This document shows, in pieces, positions 14,624 through 61,591 of a stretch of DNA of 64,000 nt (positions within the stretch are counted from its first letter, which is position 1; the number at the start of each line of letters is the position of its first letter). Location of the stretch: the NCBI RefSeq assembly GCF_000313755.1, contig NZ_AMZB01000121.1:124001-188000 (forward strand), given 5' to 3'. This DNA is from Pseudomonas nitroreducens TX1. GTDB lineage: Bacteria > Pseudomonadota > Gammaproteobacteria > Pseudomonadales > Pseudomonadaceae. The notes beneath the pieces are model-generated. The model saw only the letters and a program-made list of their open reading frames with translations. It had not been told where the DNA came from and made no database searches. The position numbers and the translations under genes were made by a program.

Positions 14624-14654
14624 ATGTTCCAGCTTGGGCCTCCGTGCCACCAGC
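14624..14654 (-). promoter_or_regulatory. Island promoter element 1
   Basis: Box GCTGGTGGCAC, 14 bases, then GAACAT. It lies 56 bp upstream of the truncated DUF262 gene. Confidence 0.6.
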
Positions 14655-14676
14655 ACTCCTGGCCAATTTCACTGCC

Positions 14677-14913
14677 CTAAGTCCAGGCGCTGAGTACCTC
14701 TTGGGGCACTTCCGCTCGCAAGGTCAAAATGCAGTGTTGTTCAGCTATGTCGTAGAACACTACTGCTTCGCCCTTGATAAGGGCTTGGCGTACGCGTTCG
14801 ACCTTCACCTCTTCCGGGGTCTCGTCACCCCCATCGGTGCCGTCCCGGCTGACGAAATCCCGCATCAAGTTGTCCAGCGTCTCGGGCTGCAGCTGGTCGT
14901 AGGGAATCAGCAT
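14677..14913 (-). CDS. UPF0270/YheU-family protein
   Basis: The 78-residue product starts MLIPYDQLQPETLDNLMRDF and continues with a REGTD-like SRDGTDGGD stretch, matching the small YheU (UPF0270) family. Function is unknown. It follows the 67-residue gene by 9 bp and so is probably cotranscribed from the element at 15164. Confidence 0.75.
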   Translation of the reverse strand: MLIPYDQLQPETLDNLMRDFVSRDGTDGGDETPEEVKVERVRQALIKGEAVVFYDIAEQHCILTLRAEVPQEVLSAWT

Positions 14914-14922
14914 ACGAAGCCC

Positions 14923-15126
14923 TCAGCCGATCTGGCGCGCGCCATCGGTGCGAAGCACCAGGCCGCGACTGCATGGGTAGGTGAAGTGGTCGTCGGGCCA
15001 GCGCACTGAGACGCGCTCCCCTTGGCAGCCTTCCATTCGGCAGCGGTGGACCGCGCCGGTGGCCACGCCTGCTTCGGCTCCGGCCTGGTCGTAAACGAGT
15101 TGCTGGGTACGCGTGGGGTTGCTCAT
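14923..15126 (-). CDS. Small hypothetical protein, 67 aa
   Basis: I do not recognise this protein. It has a central HRCRMEGCQGE segment and a later Cys, so three cysteines and a His could bind a metal. AGGT precedes the ATG. It is first in a two-gene unit with the YheU-like gene and has an island promoter element 38-68 bp upstream. Confidence 0.6.
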   Translation of the reverse strand: MSNPTRTQQLVYDQAGAEAGVATGAVHRCRMEGCQGERVSVRWPDDHFTYPCSRGLVLRTDGARQIG

Positions 15127-15163
15127 AGGATCACCTCTGATGACCTTGGTGGCCGATGAGGTG

Positions 15164-15194
15164 ATTGTGGCCGCCCCTGGCTAGTGCCAGAAGC
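15164..15194 (-). promoter_or_regulatory. Island promoter element 2
   Basis: Box GCTTCTGGCAC, 14 bases, then CACAAT. It serves the two-gene unit that starts at 15126. Confidence 0.75.
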
Positions 15195-15203
15195 GGCGAG
15201 GGA

Positions 15204-16268
15204 TCAGTTCCGGGTGACGCAGTGATTGATGAAGCTGCGGATCATGTCGCGTTCGGGGCGGGCGTCGATCAAGAATCCGTAGAAGGACTCTGCGCGCTGC
15301 GGATGGAACCCGAAGCCAATCTGCTCTGCAGCCTGAAGGTCCCACAGCATCGTGGAGTCGGGGACGAAGCTCGCCATCAGGAAATCGCCGCTGATCTTCG
15401 GTGCTGACTGGAGCTTAGGAATCGTGTGGAACTGACTGTTGAGCTTCAGCGTGAAGCTACGCGCGGTGTTCAGGATGTTCTGGTTGTTCTCCCCGGCATC
15501 ATAGAGAGCTGTGACCTTGATGCCGCTCGGGCCCGAACAGCTGAAGAGGAGTTTGCCAGTCCCGTTCCAGGTCTCCTGCTCACCTTTGAGGTAGACCGCC
15601 CCCTGCTTACCTTCGATGACCCAGTTGGGGGGAAGAAGGCCATTGTTGACCAGGGCCAGGCTGGTTGCTTCCGACACCGACAGCAGTTGCATCTTTCCGC
15701 CACCCACCTGTGCCATCTTCTCGAACAGCAGCGGACTCACACCCACACGAATCAAGTAACTCGTGATTGCAGCGCTAACGACCTGGCCGACATCGAGATC
15801 GGAAGAGGATGCGGTCTTCCTGAAGAACCGGTGCACTCCGATTTGTGCTTTTTGATCCGCAAATCGGAAGTGGCCACCGCCAAACGAAAGCACACAGGCG
15901 CTGTAGCAGACACCTGGGAGCGGCTTGCCGTACTCCCCGCTGTATTTCCCGATCGATGTGTTGACCCCACGTCGCCTGAGGGTGTCGCCCAACTCCATGG
16001 CGGCCACAAGATCGCCGCCGGCAGAGTCAAAGGCGAGCATGGGGACCTTCGGTCCGGCGCGGTCCAGGGCCTGGGTTACCTCTTTGGTAGTGCTGGTGGT
16101 GATCTCCCCGGAAAGGTAGATCTCCGCCGGCGCGGCAGTACCGTCGGGATAGGTGCTTTGCAGAACCTGAATTTTGGCCTGGGACGCTAGGGTTATCCCG
16201 GCCAGGGCCAGTCCAAGCGCCAGCGAGATTGCATTCCTGAGCCGGGAACGATCTGCACTCGACAGCAT
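15204..16268 (-). CDS. Exported ClpP-fold (SppA/COG3904-like) protein, paralogue 1
   Basis: The 354-residue product has a signal peptide or anchor (about residues 13-31). A ClpP/crotonase-like core follows: FDSAGGDL at 80-87 (oxyanion strand), CYSAC at 121-125 with candidate nucleophile Ser123, and GVHRFF with candidate His146. A beta-rich C-terminal half of about 180 residues is not typical of ClpP. It is a close structural paralogue of the protein at 33213. Its start overlaps the stop of the lipoprotein gene, so the pair is coupled. Protease activity is inferred only. Confidence 0.7.
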   Translation of the reverse strand: MLSSADRSRLRNAISLALGLALAGITLASQAKIQVLQSTYPDGTAAPAEIYLSGEITTSTTKEVTQALDRAGPKVPMLAFDSAGGDLVAAMELGDTLRRRGVNTSIGKYSGEYGKPLPGVCYSACVLSFGGGHFRFADQKAQIGVHRFFRKTASSSDLDVGQVVSAAITSYLIRVGVSPLLFEKMAQVGGGKMQLLSVSEATSLALVNNGLLPPNWVIEGKQGAVYLKGEQETWNGTGKLLFSCSGPSGIKVTALYDAGENNQNILNTARSFTLKLNSQFHTIPKLQSAPKISGDFLMASFVPDSTMLWDLQAAEQIGFGFHPQRAESFYGFLIDARPERDMIRSFINHCVTRN

Positions 16269-21752: not shown

Positions 21753-22090
21753 AGTTCACCCTCCAAGGGGAGGATTTGGACTTCGTGGGCTTCGAAGTGA
21801 ACGAGGTAGGTGTAGTCCTCGTCGGTATCCGAGCTGGTGTCGAAGGTGGCCAGGAAATCGGCTTCCGCGTACCGCCGATGTTGCGGGACGAGAATCGGAT
21901 AGTGGCCCATGCCAGTGCGGGTATCGCGGACACCAACGACCAGGTGCTGGTCGAGCCTGGAGAGCTTCTCACCTTCTTGCAGCATGCGGCCAATCACTTC
22001 CCTGATTTCAGCCGGTAGCCCGGACAAGTCGAGTTTGCTGAGTTCTTCGAGGTGATCGAGAAGGGGCTGAGTCTGGGTTGGGTGAAACAT
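21749..22090 (-). CDS. Hypothetical protein, 113 aa
   Basis: First gene of the operon that includes the ParB-HTH-like gene. The ATG at 22090 has GAGGAG at ideal distance, so it is preferred over an in-frame ATG at 22105. The product is acidic with an N-terminal amphipathic helix; no family is recognised. Confidence 0.65.
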   Translation of the reverse strand: MFHPTQTQPLLDHLEELSKLDLSGLPAEIREVIGRMLQEGEKLSRLDQHLVVGVRDTRTGMGHYPILVPQHRRYAEADFLATFDTSSDTDEDYTYLVHFEAHEVQILPLEGEL

Positions 22091-22119
22091 GGATTCGCTC
22101 CTCATGAATGATGGAGCTG

Positions 22120-22150
22120 ATGATCAGGGGTACCGGGGCGTGCCAGAACC
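22120..22150 (-). promoter_or_regulatory. Island promoter element 3
   Basis: Box GGTTCTGGCAC, 14 bases, then GATCAT; 30 bp from the start at 22090. Confidence 0.75.
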
Positions 22151-22546: not shown

Positions 22547-22987
22547 TCAACTTGCCGACTGAGGGCTGGCAACCTTTCCGAGTTTTTCCATGAAGTCCTC
22601 GACCGCCATGTCCTGCAGCTTGGAGATGCGATCGCGAAGGATCGACCAGCGCTCTTCCTCTTCCATGGCCATGTACTCGGCGCGGTAGCGACAGCCGTCC
22701 AGGATCAGCTCCGTCGCCTGCGTCTGATTGACGACAAACACCACCTTGCCGTCGAGTTTCAGGTTCTCGCGAGCAAAGACCTCCGAGATGGAGTCACTGG
22801 GGTCGAGAGATGCATAGAAGCGACCGCGGAGGAAGTCCCCCTGGAAGGTTTGCTGGCCCAGGAGGGGGCGCGCAGCATTCATCAGGATCTGGCCCGGAAC
22901 CAGCTCCGGGATTTCCTTGAGGCCCGTGCAGACTGCGACGGGAGCTTTGGCCAGGTAGGTCAGGAGTTGGGATTCTTGGTACTGCAT
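22547..22987 (-). CDS. Hypothetical protein, 146 aa
   Basis: The product begins MQYQESQLLTYLAK and ends in a helix-rich tail. A central GDFLRGRFYASLDPSDS segment suggests a mixed alpha/beta fold. No family is recognised. GAGG precedes the ATG at 22987 and an island promoter element is upstream. Confidence 0.65.
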   Translation of the reverse strand: MQYQESQLLTYLAKAPVAVCTGLKEIPELVPGQILMNAARPLLGQQTFQGDFLRGRFYASLDPSDSISEVFARENLKLDGKVVFVVNQTQATELILDGCRYRAEYMAMEEEERWSILRDRISKLQDMAVEDFMEKLGKVASPQSAS

Positions 22988-23018
22988 AGCGCGACACCTC
23001 ATCTGTGTTGGTTGCCGC

Positions 23019-23049
23019 TATGGTCCCGGATCGAGTGTGTGACAGAAGC
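23019..23049 (-). promoter_or_regulatory. Island promoter element 4
   Basis: Box GCTTCTGTCAC, 13 bases, then GACCAT; upstream of the 146-residue gene at 22987. Confidence 0.65.
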
Positions 23050-25060: not shown

Positions 25061-25621
25061 TCACATGCCGATCGGTGCTTCATGGGGGCTGCGGTCCAGG
25101 TGCATCGCCAGCTGCATGGACGCGATTTCAACGATCTCGGCCGGGGACAATGGTTCTGAAGCGATTGCCATTGCAGGACGCAGAACACGGATGCCGGTCT
25201 TCGCTTCCCACTCAATCGCGATGAAGTGGACACCAGGAACCTGGTTCAGGGGTGGGGCGATCTGCCAGGTCTTGGTTGTTCTTGCGTAGCCTGCGAGGTA
25301 GCCGAGCAGATTTCCGCGAGCCTCCAAGGTCTGCTGATCGAGGGAGGAATCGAAGGAGGAAACAGCGGCCAGGTACTGATCAGCTGGATGCACACCTGGG
25401 TGTTTGCCATTGGCCTCGGCGATGATGCCCTTGCCGGTCTGTGCTGAGCGGTACAGCTCCTGTGAGGCTGCGCCGATGAGACGGACGCCCGACACCAAAT
25501 TCATCGAGTAGAACCAGCACCGCACCGTATCGATGTGGGGCTGATCCTCGGTGACCTTCCAGCCGGACTTATCCAGCCCTGCCTCGATGCGCTTGCGCAT
25601 TGCTTCTCTGACTTTGTCCAT
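25061..25621 (-). CDS. Hypothetical protein, 186 aa
   Basis: No family is recognised. The first residues, MDKVREAMRKRIEAGLDKSG, form a charged amphipathic helix; the rest is mixed. The start at 25621 follows AGGAAAC and lies downstream of the promoter element; a longer frame from a GTG at 25681 would overlap the element itself. Confidence 0.6.
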   Translation of the reverse strand: MDKVREAMRKRIEAGLDKSGWKVTEDQPHIDTVRCWFYSMNLVSGVRLIGAASQELYRSAQTGKGIIAEANGKHPGVHPADQYLAAVSSFDSSLDQQTLEARGNLLGYLAGYARTTKTWQIAPPLNQVPGVHFIAIEWEAKTGIRVLRPAMAIASEPLSPAEIVEIASMQLAMHLDRSPHEAPIGM

Positions 25622-25654
25622 GTTTCCTGAGCCTGTGGTGCTGAATCGGACCTC

Positions 25655-25685
25655 CATCATCTGTGGATCAGGGCGTGACACCAGC
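25655..25685 (-). promoter_or_regulatory. Island promoter element 5
   Basis: Box GCTGGTGTCAC, 13 bases, then GATGAT; upstream of the 186-residue gene. Confidence 0.55.
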
Positions 25686-27191: not shown

Positions 27192-27851
27192 TTAGATGCT
27201 GATCCGGATCTCGACTCGGCGGTTCGCCTGACGGCCAGATTCCGAGGTGTTGTCTGCGATGGGCTGGGAATCGGCAACGCCGCGGACTTCGATCCGGTCC
27301 CTAGAAATCCCATTCGCAAAGAGGTACTGCGCCACACTCTCGGCGCGGCCGTAACTCAGTCGCATGTTGCTCGGGTGAGCACCTACGTTGTCGGTGTGGC
27401 CGGTGATAACAGCGCGTTGCTCCGGATGTTCGCGCAGTGCGCCAGCAAGGCTGGCCAGACCGCTGAACGCTTGCATCTGCAGATCGGCAGAGCCCGACCT
27501 GAAGGTGATGTCTAACGGCGCCTTCACGACCAAAGCTTGGGTGCCGTGGGCCTGGTCAGTCACCTGCTCAACGGTCAGTCCAGTCCCCTGCAGCTTTCTT
27601 TGCAACTCGGCATGCCGGCGGTCCAGGAGGTATCCGCTGCCACCGCCGACGCCTGCCCCAATGGCAGCACCGATGAGTGCTGCTCGGCCGTCTCCAAGTG
27701 CCGCCCCGATCAGGCCGCCGGCGACGGTACCGACCACAGCACCGACGGCTGTCCGGTCGATCTGATTCTCGCCAGTAGCTGGATTGGTCGTGCAGCCAAC
27801 GAGGCCGATCAGGGCTGCAGCGAGGCAAAGGGTCTTGATGATCTGGAACAT
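27192..27851 (-). CDS. OmpA-family lipoprotein
   Basis: The 219-residue protein has a lipobox (LIGLVGC), a Gly-rich region (GAVVGTVAGGLIGAALGDG, about 36-75) like a glycine-zipper, and a C-terminal OmpA peptidoglycan-binding domain (ITGHTDNVGAHPSN, LSYGRAESV, RVEIRI). It would sit in the outer membrane and bind peptidoglycan through the conserved Asp and Arg residues, as YiaD-type proteins do. Confidence 0.85.
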   Translation of the reverse strand: MFQIIKTLCLAAALIGLVGCTTNPATGENQIDRTAVGAVVGTVAGGLIGAALGDGRAALIGAAIGAGVGGGSGYLLDRRHAELQRKLQGTGLTVEQVTDQAHGTQALVVKAPLDITFRSGSADLQMQAFSGLASLAGALREHPEQRAVITGHTDNVGAHPSNMRLSYGRAESVAQYLFANGISRDRIEVRGVADSQPIADNTSESGRQANRRVEIRISI

Positions 27852-27878
27852 GATGGAGCTCCTCGAAAGTGGAGCCTC

Positions 27879-27909
27879 ATCTTCTTTCTGCTGCCTTCGT
27901 GCCAGAAGC
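27879..27909 (-). promoter_or_regulatory. Island promoter element 6
   Basis: Box GCTTCTGGCAC, 14 bases, then GAAGAT; 28 bp from the OmpA-family gene. Confidence 0.8.
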
Positions 27910-27985: not shown

Positions 27986-28835
27986 TTATCGACGCGGAGG
28001 GAAAGGCCAGTCGCAGTCGAAGTTGGTTTCGTCGATGGGCTTTGCCTGGGGCGAGAAGAAGTCATCCTGCCTGTCGGCATGAACCAGGGCTGCATCCAGG
28101 CGCGGCAGAGTCTTGGAGAAGCGGGTGGCGCTCGTACCATCGATGGAGTGTGCGCCAGCGGCAGAGCAGAGCATGATGCGTTTGGCCGAGTTCACTCGCC
28201 CGACATGGAAATGGCAGTTCCTACGCCGCGCCAGCACGCCCCATGCGTTACAGGTCTTCAGCTTCCAATCAGTTGACCCGCCCAGGAACAGCCCGCAGCT
28301 GGGGCTAAGAAATTCTCGGACATCATCAGGTTCCACGCCGTCTTGTACCGCGATGAGAGTCAGAGTCGGAATTCCGGAAACGCTCCTTCCACCTAAGCGA
28401 AAACTCAAGAGACGCCATGCCCCCACAAACGATGTCAGGGAGGACCACGAAGTCCGCATCAGCACCTAGCAGATCCACTGCTTTACCAAAGGCCACTTCA
28501 TCGAAAGGTCGTCCCTGCTGGAAGGCCGACCAAGCGGCGTTGTCGAGGCAGAATTTCATGCCTTCCGTGCGTAATGCACCAGCCGGGCTCACCAAAAGCC
28601 GCCACCCAGCCTCCCTCATTGCAGCGAGGTTCTGCTTGGTGCCGGTGCGCGACGCATAGGAAACCATCTCCTTACGCATTACCGGCAGTCGCTCCTCACA
28701 CTCGGGTTCCATATCGGCGCTGCCGTCCATGTTGTAGTAGTCGCTGTAGGCGAGCTTGGCCTGGGCGTAGCCGACACGGGTACCGTCGAGGTAAGGCTTC
28801 ATCCAGCTGGGCGGCGTGTAGACGGCTTCTTGCAT
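27986..28835 (-). pseudogene. tRNA-guanine-transglycosylase-like (DpdA-related) protein, frameshifted
   Basis: Two overlapping frames together make one protein. The first part has MQEAVYTPPSW, LVSPAGALRTEGMKFCLDNAAW and FVVLPDIVCGG (TGT-barrel Asp region). The second frame continues with AVQDGVEPDDV, LFLGGSTDWKLKT (GGS substrate loop) and FHVGRVN. The break is near 28370, at a point where one indel restores the order. TGT-like enzymes insert 7-deazaguanines into RNA, or into DNA in the DpdA case. It could be inactive, or a sequencing error. GGAG precedes the ATG at 28835. Confidence 0.65.
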
Positions 28836-28863
28836 GATGATCTCCATGAGCGAATTTCATGCA

Positions 28864-28894
28864 CATGGTGCCTCCGCTAAATTGTGCCACCAGC
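28864..28894 (-). promoter_or_regulatory. Island promoter element 7
   Basis: Box GCTGGTGGCAC, 13 bases, then CACCAT; upstream of the TGT-like gene. Confidence 0.6.
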
Positions 28895-29641: not shown

Positions 29642-29912
29642 TGAGGGATGCCCCTGCTACCGGGGGAATGCCGGCAAGAACTTCGAACGTTCCTTCATGC
29701 GAGTAGACGTTGACGCTACGGCCCGTCGGGAAGGGCTCCCCCTCAAGGACAACCGCGCAGCGCCAGTTTCCACCAGAAGTGTTCAGGGTGTTCATGACGC
29801 GCCCCCGGACGACCGTCTTGAGGTGTTCCGTGGCGAGAGGGGTGAACACAACCTCGTCCATCGGTTTGACGGGACAGAGGGTCGTTACGGTGAGGCTAAG
29901 GGCAAGTTGCAT
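29634..29912 (-). CDS. Hypothetical protein, 92 aa
   Basis: Small beta-rich protein starting MQLALSLTVTTLCPVKPMDE. GGAG lies 8 bases before the ATG at 29912. No family is recognised. First gene of a two-gene unit behind a promoter element. Confidence 0.6.
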   Translation of the reverse strand: MQLALSLTVTTLCPVKPMDEVVFTPLATEHLKTVVRGRVMNTLNTSGGNWRCAVVLEGEPFPTGRSVNVYSHEGTFEVLAGIPPVAGASLNG

Positions 29913-29937
29913 GGCATGGCTCCTTTGGATTGGAGCC

Positions 29938-29968
29938 ATGATCGTTGCGAAGGGAGCGTGCCAGAAGC
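29938..29968 (-). promoter_or_regulatory. Island promoter element 8
   Basis: Box GCTTCTGGCAC, 14 bases, then GATCAT; 26 bp from the 92-residue gene. Confidence 0.8.
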
Positions 29969-30714: not shown

Positions 30715-30826
30715 TCGTAGGACTCCAGGTGGTTTGAGACTGGCCAGGCACGGTGCCCGGTGTTGCCAAAATTTGGGGCCGCAGCGCTCGCCGACTATCA
30801 GGGGGAGGGCTTCTGAGGCTGAAACC

Positions 30827-30857
30827 ATTTTTATCCGGAGTGGTGCGTGCCAGAAGC
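30827..30857 (-). promoter_or_regulatory. Island promoter element 9
   Basis: Box GCTTCTGGCAC, 14 bases, then AAAAAT; about 113 bp from the 248-residue gene, an unusually long leader. Confidence 0.7.
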
Positions 30858-30932: not shown

Positions 30933-31130
30933 TTAGCCTTCTTTGCGCTCGCCCTGAGCACGGTCGTCAAAGGCAGACATGCCGCCGGCGAGGAAGGCGC
31001 AGATGAGAGCTGCAACGGATGCCGCAACGATGATTGGACCTTCTGCCCAGTGCCCGTAATTGACGGTGAAGAACTGCAGGCCGGCTGCGAGAAGTACGAA
31101 AACGATGACGGTCAGAATACGCAGAATCAT
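30933..31130 (-). CDS. Small two-helix membrane protein, 65 aa
   Basis: Two membrane spans (residues 4-22 and 30-50) and a short charged tail (DDRAQGERKEG). It has its own promoter element and terminator, so it is a monocistronic unit. No family is recognised. Confidence 0.65.
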   Translation of the reverse strand: MILRILTVIVFVLLAAGLQFFTVNYGHWAEGPIIVAASVAALICAFLAGGMSAFDDRAQGERKEG

Positions 31131-31156
31131 GGTGGTGCTCCTGTTTGATTTCCACC

Positions 31157-31187
31157 AGTCTCAGTGGCGATCAGTTGTGCCAGAAGC
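31157..31187 (-). promoter_or_regulatory. Island promoter element 10
   Basis: Box GCTTCTGGCAC, 14 bases, then GAGACT; 27 bp from the small membrane-protein gene. Confidence 0.75.
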
Positions 31188-33124: not shown

Positions 33125-33156
33125 GGTGTGCCCTCGGTGTTTGATTCGATGGGCAT

Positions 33157-33187
33157 AGGATCAGGCTGGAAAAGGTGTGCCAGAAGC
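33157..33187 (-). promoter_or_regulatory. Island promoter element 11
   Basis: Box GCTTCTGGCAC, 14 bases, then GATCCT; 32 bp from the sspA-like start. Confidence 0.8.
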
Positions 33188-37994: not shown

Positions 37995-38020
37995 TGGCGC
38001 CTCCCGATGTGGATGCGCCT

Positions 38021-43431: not shown

Positions 43432-43458
43432 GAAATGGCTCCTTGTGTCGTTGGAGCC

Positions 43459-43489
43459 ATATTCAGGCTGGCGCCGGTGTGACAGAACC
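43459..43489 (-). promoter_or_regulatory. Island promoter element 18
   Basis: Box GGTTCTGTCAC, 13-14 bases, then GAATAT; 27 bp from the 237-residue gene. Confidence 0.75.
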
Positions 43490-43952: not shown

Positions 43953-44128
43953 AGAGACACCGGGCGATTGGTAGGTAGCGTGGAGGCCGAAGCCCCGCTC
44001 AGCAGTGAAAATGTTGCGGTCACCGGCTGGAAGTCAGGAGCAAAGGCTACTGGAAGGGCGCTGGCCAGCCAAGATGCCACGATGGCAGCGCCACTGAGCA
44101 AAGCTATGAGGAGGACGGGTATGAGCAT
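43949..44128 (-). CDS. Small exported or membrane protein, 59 aa
   Basis: The frame starts MLIPVLLIALLSGAAIVASW, a signal-anchor, and ends on the start codon of the DUF6283-like gene. AGGG lies 8 bases before the ATG. An island promoter element lies 28 bp upstream, which supports it as a real first gene of the operon. Confidence 0.6.
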   Translation of the reverse strand: MLIPVLLIALLSGAAIVASWLASALPVAFAPDFQPVTATFSLLSGASASTLPTNRPVSL

Positions 44129-44155
44129 GGAGGGAACCCTGACTTAGATTCCCTC

Positions 44156-44186
44156 CAGTATCTGCTTGGGGTGGTGTGCCGGAAGC
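44156..44186 (-). promoter_or_regulatory. Island promoter element 19
   Basis: Box GCTTCCGGCAC, 13 bases, then GATACT; drives the 59-residue gene and the DUF6283-like gene. Confidence 0.65.
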
Positions 44187-46219: not shown

Positions 46220-46669
46220 CTAGACGGCAGTGATGTCCAGGCGGCGCAACAGGTTCACCTGGTCTGCTCGGAATACGACAACCTCGAAGCTGCCGTCCTC
46301 ATAGGTGGCGAAGATTCCGTCGTGGCCGAGATCACGGAGCCGTTCCTGAATCTCGGGGCCGAAGTGGCCGTCGGTGTCCGCCGCCTTGCGGATGAGCGCC
46401 TCTGCTTCCGCTTTCGGGAAAATGGTCAGGACCAGAGGCACCGCAGGGTTGTCCAGGTCGTAGTCGTTCTCGATCGTTGCTGTGCAACGGAATGGGTTCT
46501 GCCAGGACAATTGGACTTCCCACACTGAGCCGCCGGGGCCGGCATATTGGGTGGCGCATGCCTTGTCGGCGAAGTACAGGCCCGATCCGAAGCTTCCGCG
46601 TCTCGCAGGCCTGAGCTGTGTGGTTGAGGAGGTAGTGCCGCGGTAATACAGGTCAGCTAGGTGGGTCAT
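46220..46669 (-). CDS. ADP-ribosyltransferase-like protein
   Basis: The 149-residue protein has YYRGTTS at 8-14, then SFGSGLYFADKACATQYA at 26-43, and YEDGSFEVVVF with Glu129 near the end. This R/H-Y-E style order (RGT, the GxGLYFAD core and a late Glu) is that of small ADP-ribosyltransferases. The target and activity are inferred. It is monocistronic with a variant promoter element. Confidence 0.6.
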   Translation of the reverse strand: MTHLADLYYRGTTSSTTQLRPARRGSFGSGLYFADKACATQYAGPGGSVWEVQLSWQNPFRCTATIENDYDLDNPAVPLVLTIFPKAEAEALIRKAADTDGHFGPEIQERLRDLGHDGIFATYEDGSFEVVVFRADQVNLLRRLDITAV

Positions 46670-46693
46670 GCTGGGCTCCTTGTTGAGCCAACA

Positions 46694-46724
46694 TGTTCCG
46701 ACGGGATCTGGTGTGCCACGACCA
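46694..46724 (-). promoter_or_regulatory. Island promoter element 20
   Basis: Box GGTCGTGGCAC, 14 bases, then GAACAT; 25 bp from the ADP-ribosyltransferase-like gene. Confidence 0.6.
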
Positions 46725-46754: not shown

Positions 46755-46785
46755 GGTTCTGGCACGCGGCCATGGGTTGGATAGT
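46755..46785 (+). promoter_or_regulatory. Island promoter element 21, plus strand
   Basis: Box GGTTCTGGCAC at 46755-46765, 14 bases, then GATAGT at 46780-46785. It is the only copy in plus orientation and lies before a plus-strand gene (46833). Confidence 0.8.
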
Positions 46786-46832
46786 TACCCCATCACGTGG
46801 TCACTTCCGACCCTGCCGCTTGGAGCACCAAC

Positions 46833-47135
46833 ATGCAGAACAACAACTCCACCACTAGCCACGAACAACGCTACAGCGAACTGCTGGGATCGATCTCCTG
46901 GGAGTTCGACAACCCGCCTCCTTCGTTCGCCGAGATGAAGGCTCATGTCCAGGGCCTGCTTGAAGATGACGGGGAGCCAGCTTCGGTGGCCCGAAGCTTC
47001 AAGGATTTCAACGCCTTCTTTGCGTGGTTCGACGCTGTCACAGCGTTCGACCAGATGGATGCTGAGGAGTCCGCGGAAGATCTCCGCGTGCTGCTCGAAG
47101 TGGTGTATGAGTCGATCTGCTCTGAGAACTCCTGA
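46833..47135 (+). CDS. Hypothetical protein, 100 aa
   Basis: Acidic helical protein starting MQNNNSTTSHEQRYSELLGS; no family is recognised. GGAG precedes the ATG. It is divergent from the ADP-ribosyltransferase-like gene and has its own promoter element and terminator. Confidence 0.65.
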   Translation: MQNNNSTTSHEQRYSELLGSISWEFDNPPPSFAEMKAHVQGLLEDDGEPASVARSFKDFNAFFAWFDAVTAFDQMDAEESAEDLRVLLEVVYESICSENS

Positions 47136-47935: not shown

Positions 47936-48589
47936 TCAGCTCACTTTCTTCGTGTAGTCCTGATAGCTGAAGCTCTGGACCTGTTTGAGTTGCAACTCCA
48001 GGTGAGAGATCAGCTCGGCCTTAGCACGATCAAATTGCTGCTCATGGCCTTCTTGGCGTGAAGGTACCATGTAGCCATCGATCAGGCGTTTGGCTTTCTC
48101 ATGGTCGTAGCGGTTCAAGGGCACCTGGGTAGGGGAGGCCGGTTGCTGGATTGCGGTGGCCACTCCCCGGTGGAGTTTCCACTCTGCTTCAGCTTCGGCA
48201 ACCATGCGGTGGGCGTGATCGGCCGGCCTGGACTGACGGAATACCGGGTTATCCAGCCAGCGCTCCATTTCTGCCCGATGTTCGTCCAGGTCTTCTGCTG
48301 ACAACCCCTGATAGTCGCTTTGGAAAAACCAGTTGACGTCATTCAGAGCACATTCGTCGCGCCAGTCATGCGTACTGAACACATGAACCTCACCCTCGTA
48401 GTCGGCGACAAACAGGAACTCACCTTGTCCCAGGTCCGCCATGGTACCCAGCGGCATGTTCATTAGGATCTCGGCAACCTTGAAGCCAACCATCTGCATA
48501 CGCTCGTAAGCGAGCCGTTCATCTTCATGCGAAGAGTAGCGGTTGATCATGCGATTGAGTTCGAGGGAGTTCGGGTTGTTGGTGGTCAT
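47936..48589 (-). CDS. Hypothetical protein, 217 aa
   Basis: Largely helical, acidic protein; no family is recognised. The C-terminal third (RAKAELISHLELQLKQVQ) may be a coiled coil. The ATG at 48589 has GGA before it and lies downstream of a promoter element. Confidence 0.6.
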   Translation of the reverse strand: MTTNNPNSLELNRMINRYSSHEDERLAYERMQMVGFKVAEILMNMPLGTMADLGQGEFLFVADYEGEVHVFSTHDWRDECALNDVNWFFQSDYQGLSAEDLDEHRAEMERWLDNPVFRQSRPADHAHRMVAEAEAEWKLHRGVATAIQQPASPTQVPLNRYDHEKAKRLIDGYMVPSRQEGHEQQFDRAKAELISHLELQLKQVQSFSYQDYTKKVS

Positions 48590-48623
48590 GCTGAGGTCCT
48601 TCGGTATGGATTCGATGGACCTC

Positions 48624-48654
48624 AGCATCAGCGCGAACCAGGCGTGACAGAACC
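48624..48654 (-). promoter_or_regulatory. Island promoter element 22
   Basis: Box GGTTCTGTCAC, 14 bases, then GATGCT; 34 bp from the 217-residue gene. Confidence 0.75.
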
Positions 48655-49994: not shown

Positions 49995-50333
49995 TCATTG
50001 AGGTGCCACTGTACCGAGGTGGTAGGTCTGGCCCACCTTGCGCTGAACCATGTCCATCGCTTCTTCGGCTGTCAGCATGGGGAGGGAGGTGTCACGGTAG
50101 ACGACGTGGACGCCACGCCCGACCAACGTAGCGGTGCGTCGCTCCGTATTTACCCAAATGCGACAGGCCTCGATCGGGAACCCGCCGGCGGCCCGCCCCA
50201 TCATAGCGAAGATGCTCTTGGCGCAGTCTTCAGGCGAGGTGAAGTCAAACACCCGTGGGATTGGTGTCGACTCGGAAGAGGCGATGACTACGGTGGATTG
50301 TCCGAACAGCAGATGGGCGTATTGAAGGTTCAT
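49995..50333 (-). CDS. Hypothetical protein, 112 aa
   Basis: Small alpha/beta protein starting MNLQYAHLLFGQSTVVIAS; no family is recognised. GGAG precedes the ATG. Monocistronic. Confidence 0.6.
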   Translation of the reverse strand: MNLQYAHLLFGQSTVVIASSESTPIPRVFDFTSPEDCAKSIFAMMGRAAGGFPIEACRIWVNTERRTATLVGRGVHVVYRDTSLPMLTAEEAMDMVQRKVGQTYHLGTVAPQ

Positions 50334-50360
50334 GGCGGCGCTCCTGTTTGGCGTAGGAGT

Positions 50361-50391
50361 AGCATCCGATGCCTGCGGGCGTGCCAGAACC
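50361..50391 (-). promoter_or_regulatory. Island promoter element 23
   Basis: Box GGTTCTGGCAC, 14 bases, then GATGCT; 27 bp from the 112-residue gene. Confidence 0.75.
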
Positions 50392-52422: not shown

Positions 52423-53109
52423 TCAGAACCCCATGCCGAGCTGCTCCGAAAGATCGGATCGGGGACGTTGGGCAGTTGGTTGAGTTGCTGCCTCTTCCTG
52501 CAGAGGTGCATCACGCACGTATACGGGTTCTGCCTGCAGGCCCAGTTCAACCCTGAGTTTCTGAACTGCCAGATATGCCACGATGTAGGGGCGAGTTTGC
52601 GGGCCGTGCATGCCACGGGTGCTCAGGTCCAGGCCGCAAGACCCTTTAGCGTCGGCCATCAGGTACCTGGTACCGGACTTGATCACTTGCACGAACCCTC
52701 GGGCGTAGTTGTCAGCCGCGAATGCGGTCAGGCGATCCACCTCGGAGAATCGGCTGGAGAGGTCCTCGAAGATGACCTGCAGACGTCGTTCAGCTTCGCG
52801 CAGTTCATCCCGCTTTGGGTCCACCCCGGCCCATTCCAGGATCGCTGCCCAAGTGCCGGATTGGGTGCGGGGCAGGTGGACACCAGTCACATGACTAAAG
52901 ACGGCCTTACCGACGTTGTTTAAGCCGTTGGCGAGTGCAGAGAGGCCGTAGGCATTCCGGTTCAGAATCGACTCGGCGAAGAGACGGTGGTAGTCGCTGA
53001 CCCGCGGGGGATGGCCTGTGCGCGAGGCCAGTTCTTGGGCGTAGAAGGCGGCGATGCCGTCGACAGTTTGCAGGTCATGAGTGGTTGGGAGTTGGAGAGC
53101 GGCGGCCAT
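52423..53109 (-). CDS. Hypothetical protein, 228 aa
   Basis: Largely helical protein; no family is recognised. It lies 103 bp upstream of the FtsH-like gene and may be cotranscribed, although a GGGTGGGT/ACCCACCC hairpin at about 52377-52407 lies between them. Confidence 0.6.
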   Translation of the reverse strand: MAAALQLPTTHDLQTVDGIAAFYAQELASRTGHPPRVSDYHRLFAESILNRNAYGLSALANGLNNVGKAVFSHVTGVHLPRTQSGTWAAILEWAGVDPKRDELREAERRLQVIFEDLSSRFSEVDRLTAFAADNYARGFVQVIKSGTRYLMADAKGSCGLDLSTRGMHGPQTRPYIVAYLAVQKLRVELGLQAEPVYVRDAPLQEEAATQPTAQRPRSDLSEQLGMGF

Positions 53110-53141
53110 ATGTTGGTCCTGATTGTGTTCGGATTGAACAC

Positions 53142-53172
53142 AGGATCAGGCGCTTCGCCGCGTGCCAGAACC
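53142..53172 (-). promoter_or_regulatory. Island promoter element 24
   Basis: Box GGTTCTGGCAC, 14 bases, then GATCCT; 32 bp from the 228-residue gene. Confidence 0.8.
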
Positions 53173-54752: not shown

Positions 54753-56570
54753 TTACAGGAATAAGGCCAGCTGGCCGACCAGGGCTGCGCGCCGCTCTTC
54801 TTCTTTTTGCTGAAATTTGGTCTGTAGGGTTTCAACCAGCGCGTGCGGGTCATGGAGGATCGGCAAGAGCCCATGGTTCCAAGCCTGATTCCCCACTCGC
54901 ATGATTCGATCCCACTCGCTGAGGCTGCCCTTGTACAGGGTCACCGTGCCGAGGCCGACCAGGTAATGGACCACTCCTGCCGGGTTATCCAGGACGCTTA
55001 CTCTCTCCAGCGCGTAGTCCCGGTCGAACTCCCAGAACAGGGCAGCGCCTTCCTCGTCGATTTCGAACTCTTCGCCGGTGTTGGCGTGGGCCAGGATGGT
55101 CCCGTCGCCCATTACAACGGTCGACTCACAGTCAGCTACCGCAGCATCGACGTCTCGGAAGCCTCGCCAGGCCGAGTAATACTCCTCGTCGGCGAACGGG
55201 ACTTCGGCGCGGAAGGACACGTCTTTTTCGGTGAACGTCGGGATCGAATCCAGGGCAGGAATCTCGTAGCGTTTGCCCTGCTCGTAGATCTCCTTCCAGG
55301 TGCGAATGGCCATGAAGCTTTTTTGGTACTGGTACCTGCCCCAGAGAAGGTCAAGGGCGATGATCTGGCGCTCGTTGAACACCTCAAAGCGTGGGGCAAT
55401 ACCCAGCCTCCTGGCAGCAGTTTCCTCGCGAACCTGAATGGTCAGGATCAACCGAAGCAGATCCAACGTGTATTGGGGACTGTAGGCGTTGGGAAGTATC
55501 TTGATTGTTCCTTTCGACTCATCAACCGTGCGGGCTAGCCAGCAGCGCGCCGACGGATCGAAGTGGCGCGCACGCATGTAGGCTCGCAATTCCAGCAGCG
55601 GTTTCATGAAGGCGTTCTTCCCGCCTTCGGCCTGCACCATGTTCTCGGCGCTGGTGTCTCGGACCCCAATTCGAGTGCAAACCCAACATCCTGTACGGGC
55701 GCTGCACGGGGCTCGGTTCTGCTCGCGTCCAGAGATATAGGCCGTGACCATGCAATCTCCACCGTTGGCCTCACGGTAGATTTCGACCAGCTCGTCAAAG
55801 TCTGAGTAGGCCTCGATCTTCCCCGACCGCACGTGGCCGATATAGGTGAAGACGTCGAAGGTGGTCCAGTCAGCAATGGGGCTAAGGACCAGTTGACCGT
55901 CATCCATTACGTCGACTGCTTCGGTGGCACTCTCACCACGCTCCTTCATCTTCGCAGAGCGTGCAGCGCTCTCTTCGTATCGGGTACCAATGATGCTGAA
56001 GAGGTTGGCGTCTTTGGCTTTCACGCCGTCTTTCTCGGCTACCCAATCGCGCACCTTGCGCTTGATTCGGTTCAGTGCCGAAACCTTCATCATCATGGAG
56101 CATTTCGTGTTTGCTCCAACCGACATGATCGTTCGCCCGGCGAGTACAGAGACGAGATAATCGTTGGACAAACTAGGGGTAGCCAACCAGACGCGGGTAT
56201 CGATTCCAGTGGCCTTGCCGTATGCCTCGATGGCCTTGAGCTGGCCTTTGTTGTAAATCTCCAGCACAGGGTTCTCGACCCCCGTATTGGAGTGGACCAC
56301 ATGCAACGTGGGCACGGCGAACCCTTCTTCTTTCAGCTCGCGCAGGGCAGTGAAGGTGAGGTTCAAGCAGCACGAAGAATCCTTCCCTCCCGAGTAGGCG
56401 AGGCAGGGATGACGACCCTCTCGAACCTGTTGCTTGATGGCTTCAACCGCAGCCTTCACCTTATCGTCGAAGGTGAGGTCCATTACGGGTACGAGAGCCG
56501 GTGCAGGCTCCGCGACGTCGAAGAGGCCGGCCTGGATAGACTGGGACAGCTTGGTCTGGGCGGTGGTCAT
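54753..56570 (-). CDS. DndC-like PAPS-reductase-family protein
   Basis: The 605-residue protein has the SGGKDS PP-loop at 60-65, Cys157 in ANTKCSMMMK, and a C289-x5-C295-WV-C298 cluster (CSARTGCWVCTRI). The last resembles the Fe-S site of DndC, which activates and transfers sulfur during DNA phosphorothioation. A C-terminal region of about 200 residues has no recognised domain. No dndA, dndB, dndD or dndE is seen in the window, so the pathway partner is unknown. Confidence 0.7.
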   Translation of the reverse strand: MTTAQTKLSQSIQAGLFDVAEPAPALVPVMDLTFDDKVKAAVEAIKQQVREGRHPCLAYSGGKDSSCCLNLTFTALRELKEEGFAVPTLHVVHSNTGVENPVLEIYNKGQLKAIEAYGKATGIDTRVWLATPSLSNDYLVSVLAGRTIMSVGANTKCSMMMKVSALNRIKRKVRDWVAEKDGVKAKDANLFSIIGTRYEESAARSAKMKERGESATEAVDVMDDGQLVLSPIADWTTFDVFTYIGHVRSGKIEAYSDFDELVEIYREANGGDCMVTAYISGREQNRAPCSARTGCWVCTRIGVRDTSAENMVQAEGGKNAFMKPLLELRAYMRARHFDPSARCWLARTVDESKGTIKILPNAYSPQYTLDLLRLILTIQVREETAARRLGIAPRFEVFNERQIIALDLLWGRYQYQKSFMAIRTWKEIYEQGKRYEIPALDSIPTFTEKDVSFRAEVPFADEEYYSAWRGFRDVDAAVADCESTVVMGDGTILAHANTGEEFEIDEEGAALFWEFDRDYALERVSVLDNPAGVVHYLVGLGTVTLYKGSLSEWDRIMRVGNQAWNHGLLPILHDPHALVETLQTKFQQKEEERRAALVGQLALFL

Positions 56571-56608
56571 GGCTTGGTGCTCACTGCACTGAAATCTGGA
56601 ATGGGCTC

Positions 56609-56639
56609 AGTTTCCAAGCAGTCGCCGCGTGCCAGAACC
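56609..56639 (-). promoter_or_regulatory. Island promoter element 25
   Basis: Box GGTTCTGGCAC, 14 bases, then GAAACT; 38 bp from the DndC-like gene. Confidence 0.8.
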
Positions 56640-57250: not shown

Positions 57251-57910
57251 TCAGAACACGATCTGATGGGTCCCGATGCGCTTGGCCGAGACGACAAAGC
57301 AGGAAGCGTGGTTTTTGCTGAGGGGGTCAGGGTCTACGCCGGCGGATACACACAGCTTGCGAAGCGCTGCCTCGACGGCAATCCGCTCGTCCAGGGCGAG
57401 GATGTGCAGGACCTCGTTTTGGCTCTTCGAGGTGAGCCTGCAGGTGACCGCGTAGAGGTCCCCGAAACTGTCGATGACCTCGACGTCACAGCCATCGACA
57501 TCCAGCCCGTTCACGACCGGCCTGAAGGACGCATTGAGGTCAGCTGCCAGCTTCTCGATGTAGCTTTGGTCTCCGCTGGTGACCACCACTGCCTGTTGAT
57601 CATCACCAGAGGGAGCTAAGCAGAGCTCCCAGGTCACTCCCAGCCATTCACCGGCCTCGGAAGCCTTGTCATAGAAGGGATAGTGTTCCGCCGGCAGCTG
57701 ATCGACTTTCGCCAGCTCATAGACCAGGACGTGCTCGTCGTCGGAGTAGACCGCCAGGCCGGGGGCCAGGCCAACGTCGTGCTGGATGCTCTCCAGCAGC
57801 TCCAGGTCCTGGGCGGGGTGGAGCATGCGGTGAATGATGTTGCTTGAGGCGAGATCATCACCCATTGCCAGCTTGAAGGCTTTGCGGGTGAAGGCTTGGT
57901 TGTAGGACAT
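57251..57910 (-). CDS. Hypothetical protein, 219 aa
   Basis: Acidic mixed protein; no family is recognised. First gene of a unit with the ArdB-like gene 47 bp downstream. Confidence 0.6.
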   Translation of the reverse strand: MSYNQAFTRKAFKLAMGDDLASSNIIHRMLHPAQDLELLESIQHDVGLAPGLAVYSDDEHVLVYELAKVDQLPAEHYPFYDKASEAGEWLGVTWELCLAPSGDDQQAVVVTSGDQSYIEKLAADLNASFRPVVNGLDVDGCDVEVIDSFGDLYAVTCRLTSKSQNEVLHILALDERIAVEAALRKLCVSAGVDPDPLSKNHASCFVVSAKRIGTHQIVF

Positions 57911-57941
57911 GATGGACCTGCGCGGTTGGCTTGATGGGCCT

Positions 57942-57972
57942 ATTACATCTGGGCAGGTGGTGTGCCAGAACC
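57942..57972 (-). promoter_or_regulatory. Island promoter element 26
   Basis: Box GGTTCTGGCAC, 14 bases, then TGTAAT, the copy closest to a classical -10. Confidence 0.8.
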
Positions 57973-58925: not shown

Positions 58926-59313
58926 TTTCTCCTAATAGCTGGGCAAATTGTCTGGCTTCCAGGAGTTCGGCCTCAGACCAAGCGACCATACCTACAACCT
59001 CGCATTGCTCGATCGGTGCAATCGCACCTGCAATTCCGGTGAGGCTGAGGTGGGTTGCATCTGCGCGGACGCACCATTGCAACCTGGTGCCATCCCTTTC
59101 CCGGCAGGAATCGAACAGGATCTCCGCGATGAAGTCGTTACCGAAGTCGGGCTTTTTCTCGACCCGCCGCATGTAGCCGGAAACTCGATACCTGCCGGGT
59201 TCGGTTCCAAAGCTGTTGGTACCGTAGTGGACTATCGCGCCCACTTCGGGGGCAAGGATTGCTGTTGTTTGAGGCATGGAAGCGGCTCTATTGAAGATTT
59301 CCGCCATGCTCAC
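58906..59313 (-). CDS. Hypothetical protein, 135 aa
   Basis: No family is recognised. GTG at 59313 overlaps the preceding stop (GTGA); an ATG at 59307 is also possible. Middle gene of a three-gene unit. Confidence 0.55.
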   Translation of the reverse strand: MSMAEIFNRAASMPQTTAILAPEVGAIVHYGTNSFGTEPGRYRVSGYMRRVEKKPDFGNDFIAEILFDSCRERDGTRLQWCVRADATHLSLTGIAGAIAPIEQCEVVGMVAWSEAELLEARQFAQLLGESGELLF

Positions 59314-59573
59314 GTGGAACTGATCGTGACACCACCCGCGCCTGCGAGCTTACTCAGGAGAGCTTGGATCGACTCCCTGGCAGTGTCTTCAGCCTGTTCC
59401 AGCGCATCCTTGTGGCCCTGCTGGTACGCCGAGCGCAGGTTCTTCGCGTTGAACTCCGGGTCAGACCGTAATCCACGGATCGAGTTGCATAGGTCCTTAC
59501 TGAAGGCCTCGAGCAGGGCGAGTACCTCGGGCGTGGGTGACGCTGGCGACTGACGAAGATGCTCGCTTTCCAT
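59310..59573 (-). CDS. Hypothetical protein, 87 aa
   Basis: Helical protein starting MESEHLRQSPASPTPEVLAL. GAGGA precedes the ATG. First gene of the unit with the two genes below it. Confidence 0.6.
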   Translation of the reverse strand: MESEHLRQSPASPTPEVLALLEAFSKDLCNSIRGLRSDPEFNAKNLRSAYQQGHKDALEQAEDTARESIQALLSKLAGAGGVTISST

Positions 59574-60004: not shown

Positions 60005-60020
60005 TCAGTGGCTCAGTCCG

Positions 60021-60635
60021 TCAGGGGGATGGGAAGAAGTACCGGATATCCTCGAGCCCGGCTTTGTGCATCTCGGCCATGTAACTGAACCAGAAATCCT
60101 GAAGATTTAGGTTCACCGCTGCCGAAAATTCTGGCGGTACCCTGGTATCGCACATGACGCTGGTGCCAGAGATGGAGAAGTACAGCCTGCAGGCCATAGG
60201 GCGGATCGCGTAGATCGAGCAACTACTGTCCTTCAGGAACGGGCAGGGCTGGCGGAAATACTGCTTCGCCAGCGTTTCCGTGTCATCAGCAGCTTCCGTC
60301 GGTGAAGGGGCGCGCTTGCGGCCGGTGGCTTCAGCAATGATGTCGGCCTCGATCTCATTGATCGCAACCGAGATGTGGCAGCAGTGGCTGCAGGACTTCT
60401 GGCAAGCCGCGTGGGGTGCAATTGCGCTAGCAATGCGATCGCCGAGCTTGCGGAGCCGGATGTACTTTGCCTTGAGACTTCCCTTCTGTTCCCCGATCTC
60501 AGCCGCCATCTCGCCCACGTTGGTGATCCACGGAGCATCCTGGGCGATACGGAAAGCATTTTCTTGAGCAACAGCTTCTAGGAGCTCGCGTTTCGGCAAG
60601 GTGCTCAGGTCGATCGCGGGAATCAGGTCGGTCAT
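60021..60635 (-). CDS. YkgJ-type cysteine-cluster protein
   Basis: The 204-residue protein has CQKSCSHCC, then CPFLKDSSCSIYAIRPMAC, the eight-cysteine pattern of the YkgJ family (PF03692), which binds Zn or Fe-S. Members are found on many plasmids and phages and their job is unknown. The start at 60635 is uncertain because no strong Shine-Dalgarno is seen. Confidence 0.75.
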   Translation of the reverse strand: MTDLIPAIDLSTLPKRELLEAVAQENAFRIAQDAPWITNVGEMAAEIGEQKGSLKAKYIRLRKLGDRIASAIAPHAACQKSCSHCCHISVAINEIEADIIAEATGRKRAPSPTEAADDTETLAKQYFRQPCPFLKDSSCSIYAIRPMACRLYFSISGTSVMCDTRVPPEFSAAVNLNLQDFWFSYMAEMHKAGLEDIRYFFPSP

Positions 60636-60675
60636 GGCCAGGCTGAACAGGGTACAGGGGACGGCAATCATACCC

Positions 60676-60915
60676 TCAGTGCTGCTGACTTCCAGAGGGG
60701 ACCGAGCACTGCTCGAGGTACTTTTCAGGCGGAATCCCAGTGAGTGCGGAGAAGGTCGTTTCGATGACCACCAGCTGCCGCCTCCAGCTCGCCAATGAGA
60801 ATTCCAGGTCATGCAGGCCCGGGGTCCGCATTAGAGCCGCCTGGTCAAGTTCAATGAAGGTGAGCACCCGTTCCCTGGAGCGGAGAAGCTTTTCGATCTG
60901 ATTCAAGTCTTGCAT
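60676..60915 (-). CDS. Small hypothetical protein, 79 aa
   Basis: Helical protein starting MQDLNQIEKLLRSRERVLTF. GGGA precedes the ATG at 60915. No family is recognised. Confidence 0.55.
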   Translation of the reverse strand: MQDLNQIEKLLRSRERVLTFIELDQAALMRTPGLHDLEFSLASWRRQLVVIETTFSALTGIPPEKYLEQCSVPSGSQQH

Positions 60916-61108
60916 TGCGGGTTCGTTCCCTGGTGAAGAGGCTCCGAGTGTTGGAGGTGCTGAAAATCCAGCAGGAAACGGGCCAGCGGTTTTTGGCCCG
61001 TTGTTGGGTGGCGGTGAGCGGTCCCTGATTATTGGGGTTGAAGCATGGCGCGCTTGTCTGCCACTACCTACAGCAGAACAGGGCACGCTGCCGTGATAGG
61101 TCTGGCCG

Positions 61109-61525
61109 TCATTTGAAGACGTCCTCAGGGTTCCCAGCGATGATTGGTAGCACGCTGCCCTCCTGACGCACCTTGGCAATGGCGAGATCTTCATAGCCCC
61201 AGATGTTGGAACGGTCGCTGATCCGCTGCGGGCCCAGGGAGGAGATCCAGATTTGCCGGCCGGTCATGACGTAGTCGCGCATGTCCTCGACCAACTGTCG
61301 GAGCGTGCCCCCGTGCGTGAAGCCTCTCCAGGCATTCCCGAAGGTGGCGGGGTGGGTATACACCCGAGCTTTGGAGTAGTGATCGTGGAACCACACCTTG
61401 CCCCGGTGATCCAGCTCCAGCCTGGCGGTGGTGTCGGATTTCTGGTCGTAGAAGAAGCGCCGGCCGTGCCGGGCGATCACTTGGATAAGTTGGTTTGCAT
61501 GCTCCACGCGTTCGGCCTTGCTCAT
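61109..61525 (-). CDS. Hypothetical protein, 138 aa
   Basis: Basic alpha/beta protein with RFFYDQKSD and a WFHDHYSKA segment, a type seen in phages and plasmids. GGAGG precedes the ATG; the promoter element is 36-66 bp upstream. Confidence 0.6.
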   Translation of the reverse strand: MSKAERVEHANQLIQVIARHGRRFFYDQKSDTTARLELDHRGKVWFHDHYSKARVYTHPATFGNAWRGFTHGGTLRQLVEDMRDYVMTGRQIWISSLGPQRISDRSNIWGYEDLAIAKVRQEGSVLPIIAGNPEDVFK

Positions 61526-61560
61526 CTGTTCACCTCCTGTGGTGGGATTTGGGAGGTGAC

Positions 61561-61591
61561 ATCGTCAGCTTGGGGATAGCATGCCACCAGC
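61561..61591 (-). promoter_or_regulatory. Island promoter element 27
   Basis: Box GCTGGTGGCAT, 14 bases, then GACGAT; upstream of the 138-residue gene. The last base of the box differs from all others. Confidence 0.6.

Follow-up and report, generated by a model that had tools for sequence, protein, structure and literature searches.

The window analysed here, a 64,000-nucleotide (nt) stretch of Pseudomonas nitroreducens TX1 (genome G000; 6.69 Mb in 138 contigs), covers positions 124001–188000 of contig C121 (291,036 bases) and carries a family of promoter-like sites in which a TTCTGGCAC-type box is followed, after a gap of 13 or 14 nt, by an NANNNT hexamer, the arrangement described in a first-pass annotation of the sequence. 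That annotation had listed 27 sites; the family is real, but a weight matrix trained on sites from contigs C121 and C66 returned 28 in the window at a score of ≥13 (27 on the minus strand and one on the plus strand, at 46757), spanning positions 14624 to 61589 as had been claimed. The training set was drawn from 68 raw box hits, of which 12 without NANNNT at 13–15 nt were excluded and 56 kept, the spacing being 14 in 45 sites and 13 in 11. Seven bases past the hexamer lies a conserved C−1/A+1 (C 70%, A 65% of the training sites); the A is the putative start site and, counted from it, the box occupies positions −35 to −27.

Scanning with a matrix, as had been proposed, gave a clear excess over reversed sequence for C121 and C66 (64 sites at a score of ≥13, training sites included, vs 1). 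The same matrix found 67 sites in the fetched parts of pTTS12 and 80 in those of NZ_CP027170, neither of which contributed to training, and 87 in the fetched 164 kb of pPlaYM7902A, with none in any of the reversed sequences. On whole records, the pattern TTCTGGCACN14-15ANNNT was absent from the DN1 plasmid and occurred 39, 44, 55, 29, 59, 42 (a count that includes one place twice) and 19 times in seven other plasmids; the reversed control pattern matched once in DN1 and nowhere in the seven. Within each plasmid the orientation was almost uniform (e.g., 58:1, 53:2, and 0:19). Equally frequent matches at host promoters, which the first-pass annotation held would speak against a dedicated family, were not seen, the strict pattern occurring 15 times in the 6.69-Mb genome, always on C121 or C66. 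Among 398 genomes of the family, a longer pattern had any match in eight, six of them with a single match, and more than one match only in the genome under study (16) and in G244 (6), a genome of another genus with 16 box sites in the 65.5 kb read from two contigs (C46, L095; C73, L097–L098). Contig C46 bears two other sigma-70 genes besides its boxes. A loose form of the pattern is fitted by TTCTGGCACAAAGACC, a single repeated sequence with several copies per chromosome in G006, G008, G014, G018 and others, perhaps inside ribosomal RNA operons.

Two other ways of classing the sites were set aside. A sigma-54 promoter (−24 TGGCAC, −12 TTGC five bases on) was rejected, as TTGC occurs at that place in 0 of the 56 training sites. 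The scarcity of sigma-70 consensus matches at 29–49 kb of the window (0 against 5.3 expected) was also dropped as a marker of the regulon, because box-poor or box-free stretches show a shortage too (C121 1–70 kb, 7 found vs 21.9 expected; window 1–14 kb, 0 vs 1.9; C121 226–291 kb, 22 vs 27.9).

A search for sigma region 2 in the first three plasmids returned the host sigma factors and one divergent protein on each plasmid, encoded on C121 by a sigma-70-family gene at 75826–77388 (minus strand, outside the window) and in pTTS12 and NZ_CP027170 by 530-codon open frames. The plasmid sigma proteins have 504–536 amino acids and their gene is preceded by the box; lying behind the same promoter, the gene should activate itself. 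Pfam matches of the C121 protein lie above the cut-off for both region 4 (53.6 bits, 1.6e-14) and region 2 (25.9 bits, 8.5e-6), and its best PDB sequence and fold matches are SigB, SigA, RpoD and RpoS, which it resembles across approximately residues 289–512. An AlphaFold model built from eight sequences had a mean predicted local distance difference test score of 72; its best 50 Foldseek matches were chains of RNA polymerase complexes (best E value 2e-12, TM score ~0.4), and it aligned with RpoD chains over approximately 500 columns. Regions 2 and 4 and the modelled RpoD-like fold place the protein in the sigma-70 family. RpoD or RpoS proper was rejected because no NCBIfam equivalog cut-off was reached: among the best 25 of 40 families the C121 protein fell under every cut-off (rpoS, 112 of 379 bits; RpoD, 104 of 555 bits), and among the NCBIfam matches listed the DN1 protein exceeded only that of the broad sigma70-ECF superfamily (44.1 vs 42.9). 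The matches of the C121 protein include, far below the cut-off, the sigma-70-family protein MzaA from the MZA anti-phage system. In five annotated TTCTGGCAC-lineage plasmids (L105:3870–6566, L103, L131–L133), the sigma gene lies directly downstream of a plasmid dnaN (sliding clamp) gene, with the sigma promoter at the 3′ end of dnaN. Late transcription in phage T4 likewise couples a sigma factor and a clamp; a T4-like clamp-coupled sigma was not carried further, the neighbour of the sigma gene in DN1 and P108 having no Pfam clamp match.

The box and the sigma factor change together. The 16 sigma genes read, several of them near-identical, all have a box of the matching lineage just upstream (one, in L150, a variant). 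All 12 genes behind a TTCTGGCAC-type box encode the region 4.2 recognition helix SKERVRQ[IL][EQ], and all four behind a CGATGACAC box encode SPQNISR[ML]E. The pPlaYM7902A protein is only 47% identical to that of C121, yet the box is kept. For the DN1 plasmid, with 36% identity, the first-lineage matrix found two sites vs one in the reversed sequence, and word counts revealed a box family of its own, CCGATGACACAG, with a GAtgaT hexamer 14 bases past CAC followed by six bases ending in the C of CATC. A matrix trained on DN1 gave, at a score of 15, 58 sites in DN1 vs 1 reversed and 3 in C121, and the pattern GATGACACN14-15ANNNT occurred on whole records 28 times in DN1, 26 in P108 and 0 in pQBR103, with nine matches in the P. 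nitroreducens genome (one on C121). Between the lineages the box differs at its first three letters and at one G/A position, while TG, CAC, the hexamer and the start are unchanged, and the switch from TTCTGGCAC to CGATGACAC takes place at constant spacing. As read from these sequences, box and recognition helix change in concert.

The closest named replicon found was pPniHBP1_1 of P. nitroreducens (NZ_CP049142, 425 kb), which encodes a sigma protein identical to that of C121 (100%) and in whose fetched 100 kb 33 leader genes match C121 leader genes (median 99%). Relatives found by way of the sigma protein were pTTS12, NZ_CP027170 (IncP-2 type), pPlaYM7902A (P. amygdali), pQBR103, pTmex-577K and pNY8709-IMP. 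Against the plasmid collection, the C121 protein matched 413 records (one at ≥99% identity, 113 at 80–90%, and 299 at <60%, the last group including RpoD, RpoS and RpoH), and the DN1 protein matched 134 at an E value of 1e-20 (132 Pseudomonas, one Stutzerimonas and one Halopseudomonas). Contig C121 is part of a megaplasmid of the pPniHBP1_1 kind, with IncP-2, pTTS12 and pQBR103 as relatives. The statement that no sites precede 14 kb holds inside the window, but further sites on C121, mostly at 72–104 kb and 188–225 kb, make the family megaplasmid-wide; the boxes cover much of a megaplasmid, and what had been called an island is correctly termed megaplasmid backbone. The observation in the first-pass annotation is confirmed and its interpretation partly supported, in that the promoter family, its −35/−10 register, its orientation along the genes and its dependence on an alternative factor are supported, the likely factor being the plasmid sigma. 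The C−1/A+1, the plasmid sigma and the inverted repeats that form fold-back leaders were absent from that account.

The −10 to −1 segment of many sites complements the Shine-Dalgarno or start region of the gene's own leader, with perfect pairs of up to 12 (sites 36490(−) and 48652(−)). A stem score was computed by pairing the 5′ segment (−14 to +2) with its own leader or with the leaders of other genes (2000 permutations), for 52 of 62 sites on C121 and C66 (score 15, start codon within 45 nt), and for 64 of 75 in NZ_CP027170, 54 of 64 in pTTS12, 73 of 87 in pPlaYM7902A and 56 of 58 in DN1 (start codon within 60 nt). Own leaders scored above swapped ones in C121 and C66 (16.7 vs 11.6), NZ_CP027170 (15.3 vs 11.4), pTTS12 (15.5 vs 11.3), pPlaYM7902A (12.7 vs 10.7) and DN1 (12.5 vs 10.8), each with 0 of 2000 permutations reaching the own score. 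The excess pairing is found at −10 to −1, falls at +1, and is absent by approximately +6 (C121) or +3 (NZ_CP027170), and the 3′ arm lies on average approximately 8 bases before the start codon in four plasmids, its position following leader length in two (r = 0.79 and 0.70). A common operator was rejected, as the arm sequences vary between sites. Among annotated plus-strand starts of two near-identical plasmids (L023, L024), 55 without a box gave a z of 0.17 and 30 with a box a z of 6.8. When arms were exchanged between orthologues, the chimeras scored below the own arms in 12 of 15 plasmid pairs (p < 0.006), these 12 being all the divergent pairs, though the pairs are not independent because there are only three lineages; gene 33185(−), for example, has TGCCC/GGGCA here and TTTCCCC/GGGGAAA in NZ_CP027170. 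The predicted openness of the ribosome site was 0.53 for RNA starting at +1 and 0.33 for RNA starting at −60 in C121, and 0.52–0.56 and 0.37–0.41, respectively, in three further plasmids, compared to 0.54 and 0.50 for 36 box-free starts (drawn from the 55 and given a mock +1 at −25). By prediction, a leader hairpin hides the Shine-Dalgarno sequence or AUG in roughly every second leader of three plasmids and less often in two others. Read-through is likely to reach these leaders, because a terminator-like hairpin (by a simple rule) stands within 250 bases upstream at only six of the 62 box sites.

Taken together, the sites are probably promoters of a plasmid-encoded sigma-70-family factor, many of them set within fold-back leaders that hide the ribosome site from read-through RNA (probability approximately 0.68). 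Region 4 of the sigma factor would contact the box at −35 to −27 and region 2 the GAnnnT −10, RNA would start at the A of C-ATC, seven bases past the hexamer, and the factor would drive its own gene via the same promoter. A read-through RNA from an upstream promoter, having both arms, would fold and mask the ribosome site, while an RNA started by the sigma factor would begin in or near the loop, lack the 5′ arm entirely or for the most part, and be translated. Many box genes look as if built for silence unless the plasmid sigma began the message, a design that may shield plasmid genes from stray transcription.

Several results weigh against this interpretation. Stems scoring ≥15 occur in 27 of 52 leaders in C121, 28 of 64 in NZ_CP027170 and 27 of 54 in pTTS12, in just 19 of 73 in pPlaYM7902A and 12 of 56 in DN1, and in 16 of 26 within the window; after swapping, the rates were 13, 12, 11, 8 and 8% (C121, NZ_CP027170, pTTS12, pPlaYM7902A and DN1, respectively). 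The 5′ arm extends 1–8 bases beyond the putative +1 in 12 of 32 strong stems in C121 and 14 of 36 in NZ_CP027170, so some pairing would persist in sigma-started RNA. Between close plasmids (three pairs), own and cross arms did not differ significantly; 22 pairs had changed there, one of them on both sides, and 10 kept pairing while 12 lost it. Bases of the 3′ arm changed only somewhat less often than other leader bases (4/230 vs 12/494, 3/124 vs 8/263, and 8/106 vs 31/248), a difference that conservation of the Shine-Dalgarno sequence could account for, and own stems overlapped the Shine-Dalgarno sequence little more often (74 of 100) than swapped ones (563 of 893). G-U pairs were not commoner than A-C (32 vs 41, three plasmids), so RNA pairing is not separated from DNA pairing. 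The link between 3′ arm position and leader length is weak in C121 (r = 0.27) and in the P. amygdali plasmid (r = 0.24). Control segments were not fully flat, with the spacer of NZ_CP027170 (49 of 2000) and the upstream segment of DN1 (28 of 2000) reaching low values; the permutations reaching the own score for spacer and upstream segments, respectively, were 203 and 623 in C121, 49 and 871 in NZ_CP027170, 155 and 822 in pTTS12, 965 and 571 in pPlaYM7902A, and 206 and 28 in DN1. Finally, G244 carries 16 boxes, yet no plasmid sigma was found there.

The indifference between G-U and A-C pairs and the near-uniform orientation of the promoters in each plasmid (58:1, 53:2, 0:19) are also what would be expected if the plasmid sigma reads the promoters while the inverted repeat works at the DNA level, as a cruciform or single-strand hairpin aiding initiation on the strand that enters during conjugation, for which Frpo-like single-strand promoters provide a model. 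This is unlikely given that the −35 box lies outside the stem, that the excess pairing falls at +1, and that the 3′ arm falls on the ribosome site (approximately −8, four plasmids) and tracks leader length in two plasmids. Initiation might instead occur upstream of the 5′ arm, in which case all messages would be hairpinned, the box would be a part of the leader or an activator site, and a protein, small RNA or condition would open the hairpin. The +1 has been placed from sequence, strong stems extend to the start codon, and some 5′ arms run past +1, all of which would suit such a scheme. It is nonetheless rather improbable, since the hexamer with A2 and T6, a 6-nt discriminator and C−1/A+1 keep the same spacing in both lineages although their boxes differ, box and sigma helix switch together, and the arms vary gene by gene.

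That the box is bound by some other activator or sigma factor, of plasmid or host, with the linked sigma gene a bystander, appears highly improbable: the pattern is almost absent from host chromosomes, a lineage-matching box (one variant) precedes each of the 16 sigma genes read, and recognition helix and box switch together. That co-change is a correlation, however, and the boxes of G244 without a found sigma factor fit a bystander. With sigma-driven promoters inside fold-back leaders as the preferred explanation, the wider proposal that the megaplasmid backbone is largely a private expression system, in which one self-activating sigma factor serves some 60–90 promoters whose leaders silence tens of unrelated genes to foreign transcription, is an even call.

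Both components belong to known kinds. As described in two T4 reviews (PMC3014915; PMC2988022), masking of the ribosome site in the long early RNA of gene e cuts lysozyme 100-fold, and the late promoters initiate inside the structure; for e, soc and I-TevI the promoter lies in the 5′ strand of a hairpin hiding the Shine-Dalgarno sequence, the longer read-through RNA is not translated, and near-promoter RNA without the 5′ part is; the late promoters require the phage sigma gp55. The plasmid leaders are predicted to share the promoter inside the 5′ arm of a hairpin hiding the ribosome site; they differ in that T4 uses it for a number of single genes, as opposed to tens of genes under an RpoD/RpoS-type sigma factor. 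Like the sigma-70 family (RpoD/RpoS/SigB), the plasmid sigma has regions 2 and 4, a fold match of approximately 500 columns and a −35/−10 spacing of 16–17, but it falls below the equivalog cut-offs among the NCBIfam matches listed and its boxes are TTCTGGCAC and CGATGACAC. In IS10-type fold-back, read-through RNA likewise masks the ribosome site, protecting from outside transcription, although there it is a terminal repeat serving one gene; a literature search on this kind of protection listed no direct match. BisDC of ICEclc resembles the plasmid sigma as element-borne control of element genes in Pseudomonas but is an activator, not a sigma factor. Literature searches of open-licence papers for the motif, for a plasmid sigma and for IncP-2 together with sigma listed no paper describing this regulon, nor was joint plasmid-wide use of a sigma regulon and fold-back leaders found in the literature searched.

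These megaplasmids (IncP-2/pBT2436-like, pTTS12, pQBR103) spread resistance and other traits in Pseudomonas. Through a plasmid sigma and its defined promoter, the backbone would gain a single handle, and the timing of its expression could be tested directly. The fold-back design would extend replicon-wide a device treated gene by gene in the portions of the T4 reviews considered, and would explain how head-to-tail genes can be separately controlled despite few terminators. If the wider proposal is true, close head-to-tail packing of genes would be possible with few terminators, and a cargo or host promoter that inserted ahead of backbone genes could not activate them. The two sigma/box lineages would also serve as natural pairs for reading sigma specificity.

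Within the window, the predicted promoters with leaders (minus strand unless stated; arms 5′/3′; "score" the matrix score and "stem" the own-leader fold-back score) begin with 14568..14652, which has a TGGTGGCAC box, hexamer GAACAT, +1 at 14617 and ATG at 14568 (score 30.9, stem 14.5). It is followed by 15126..15192 (arms ATCACCTC at 15165–15158 and GAGGTGAT at 15137–15130; stem 20), 22090..22148 (GCTCC/GGAGC; stem 14) and 22987..23047, whose box is TTCTGTCAC and whose 3′ arm contains the start codon (CATAGCG/CGCTATG; stem 18). The site at 25621..25683 is weak and only promoter-like, with no fold-back (score 17, stem 8). Further leaders lie at 27851..27907 (GATGAGGCTCC/GGAGCTCCATC; stem 20.5), 28835..28892 (TGGTGGCAC box; CCATGTGC/GCTCATGG; score 15.4, stem 15), 29912..29966 (CATGGCTCC/GGAGCCATG; stem 24), 31130..31185 (TGGTGG/CCACCA, extending to the start codon; stem 16), 33124..33185 (the TGCCC/GGGCA gene compared above; stem 14) and, with a weak stem, 34283..34341 (stem 13.5). 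The site at 30820..30855 (score 34.3) is a promoter with no called start codon within 75 nt of +1, and that at 42601..42635 (TTCTGTCAC, spacer 13; score 26.5) has its nearest called start 74 nt past +1.

A perfect 12-bp fold-back occurs at 36428..36490 (GATCCTGGCTTC/GAAGCCAGGATC; stem 31) and another, extending to the ATG, at 48589..48652 (ATGCTGAGGTCC/GGACCTCAGCAT; stem 31). Between them lie 37105..37165 (GATCCTGTTT/AGACAGGATC; stem 22.5), 37994..38049 (TGGTGGCAC box; CATAGGCGC/GCGCCAATG; stem 18), 39681..39737 (GATTCCCTC/GAGGGGATC; stem 21.5), 43431..43487 (ATGGCTCC/GGAGCCAT; stem 21) and 44128..44184 (TTCCGGCAC box; TGGAGGGAA/TTCCCTCCA; stem 23). Box promoters stand back to back and face opposite directions at 46721 (−) and 46757 (+), the former with its leader at 46669..46721 (CATGTTGG/CCAGCATG; score 17, stem 18.5) and the latter, the sole plus-strand promoter, with a weak stem (46757..46833; score 32.6, stem 11). 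The remaining sites are 50333..50389 (CTCCT/AGGAG; stem 13), 53109..53170 (TGTGTTC/GAACACA; stem 17), 56570..56637, in front of a PAPS-reductase-like gene and weak in its stem (12.5), 57910..57970, without a clear fold-back (stem 10), 59277..59334 (TGGTGTCAC; weak stem, 13) and 61525..61589 (TGGTGGCAT; TCACCTC/GAGGTGA; score 15.7, stem 18).

Many genes of the megaplasmid backbone carry only a "hypothetical" annotation; 19 of the 27 window open reading frames given to Pfam or NCBIfam matched no family, and a search of genome contigs for relatives of one window protein found none. Positions 1–14000 of the window, with 0 boxes, a G+C content of 0.645 (at C121 130–140 kb) and a LysR regulator at 13207–14097, look like cargo between two box-bearing backbone blocks. 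Among the window genes are a plasmid YejK/NdpA nucleoid-associated protein (44235–45236), which also matches an anti-phage nucleoid protein below threshold, and an FtsH-like AAA protease (M41; 50424–52319) with approximately 63% identity to proteins of IncP-2 type megaplasmids. An AbiEi-type antitoxin gene (19408–20517) adjoins an open reading frame without a Pfam match (18506–19420), and the two possibly form a type IV toxin-antitoxin pair.

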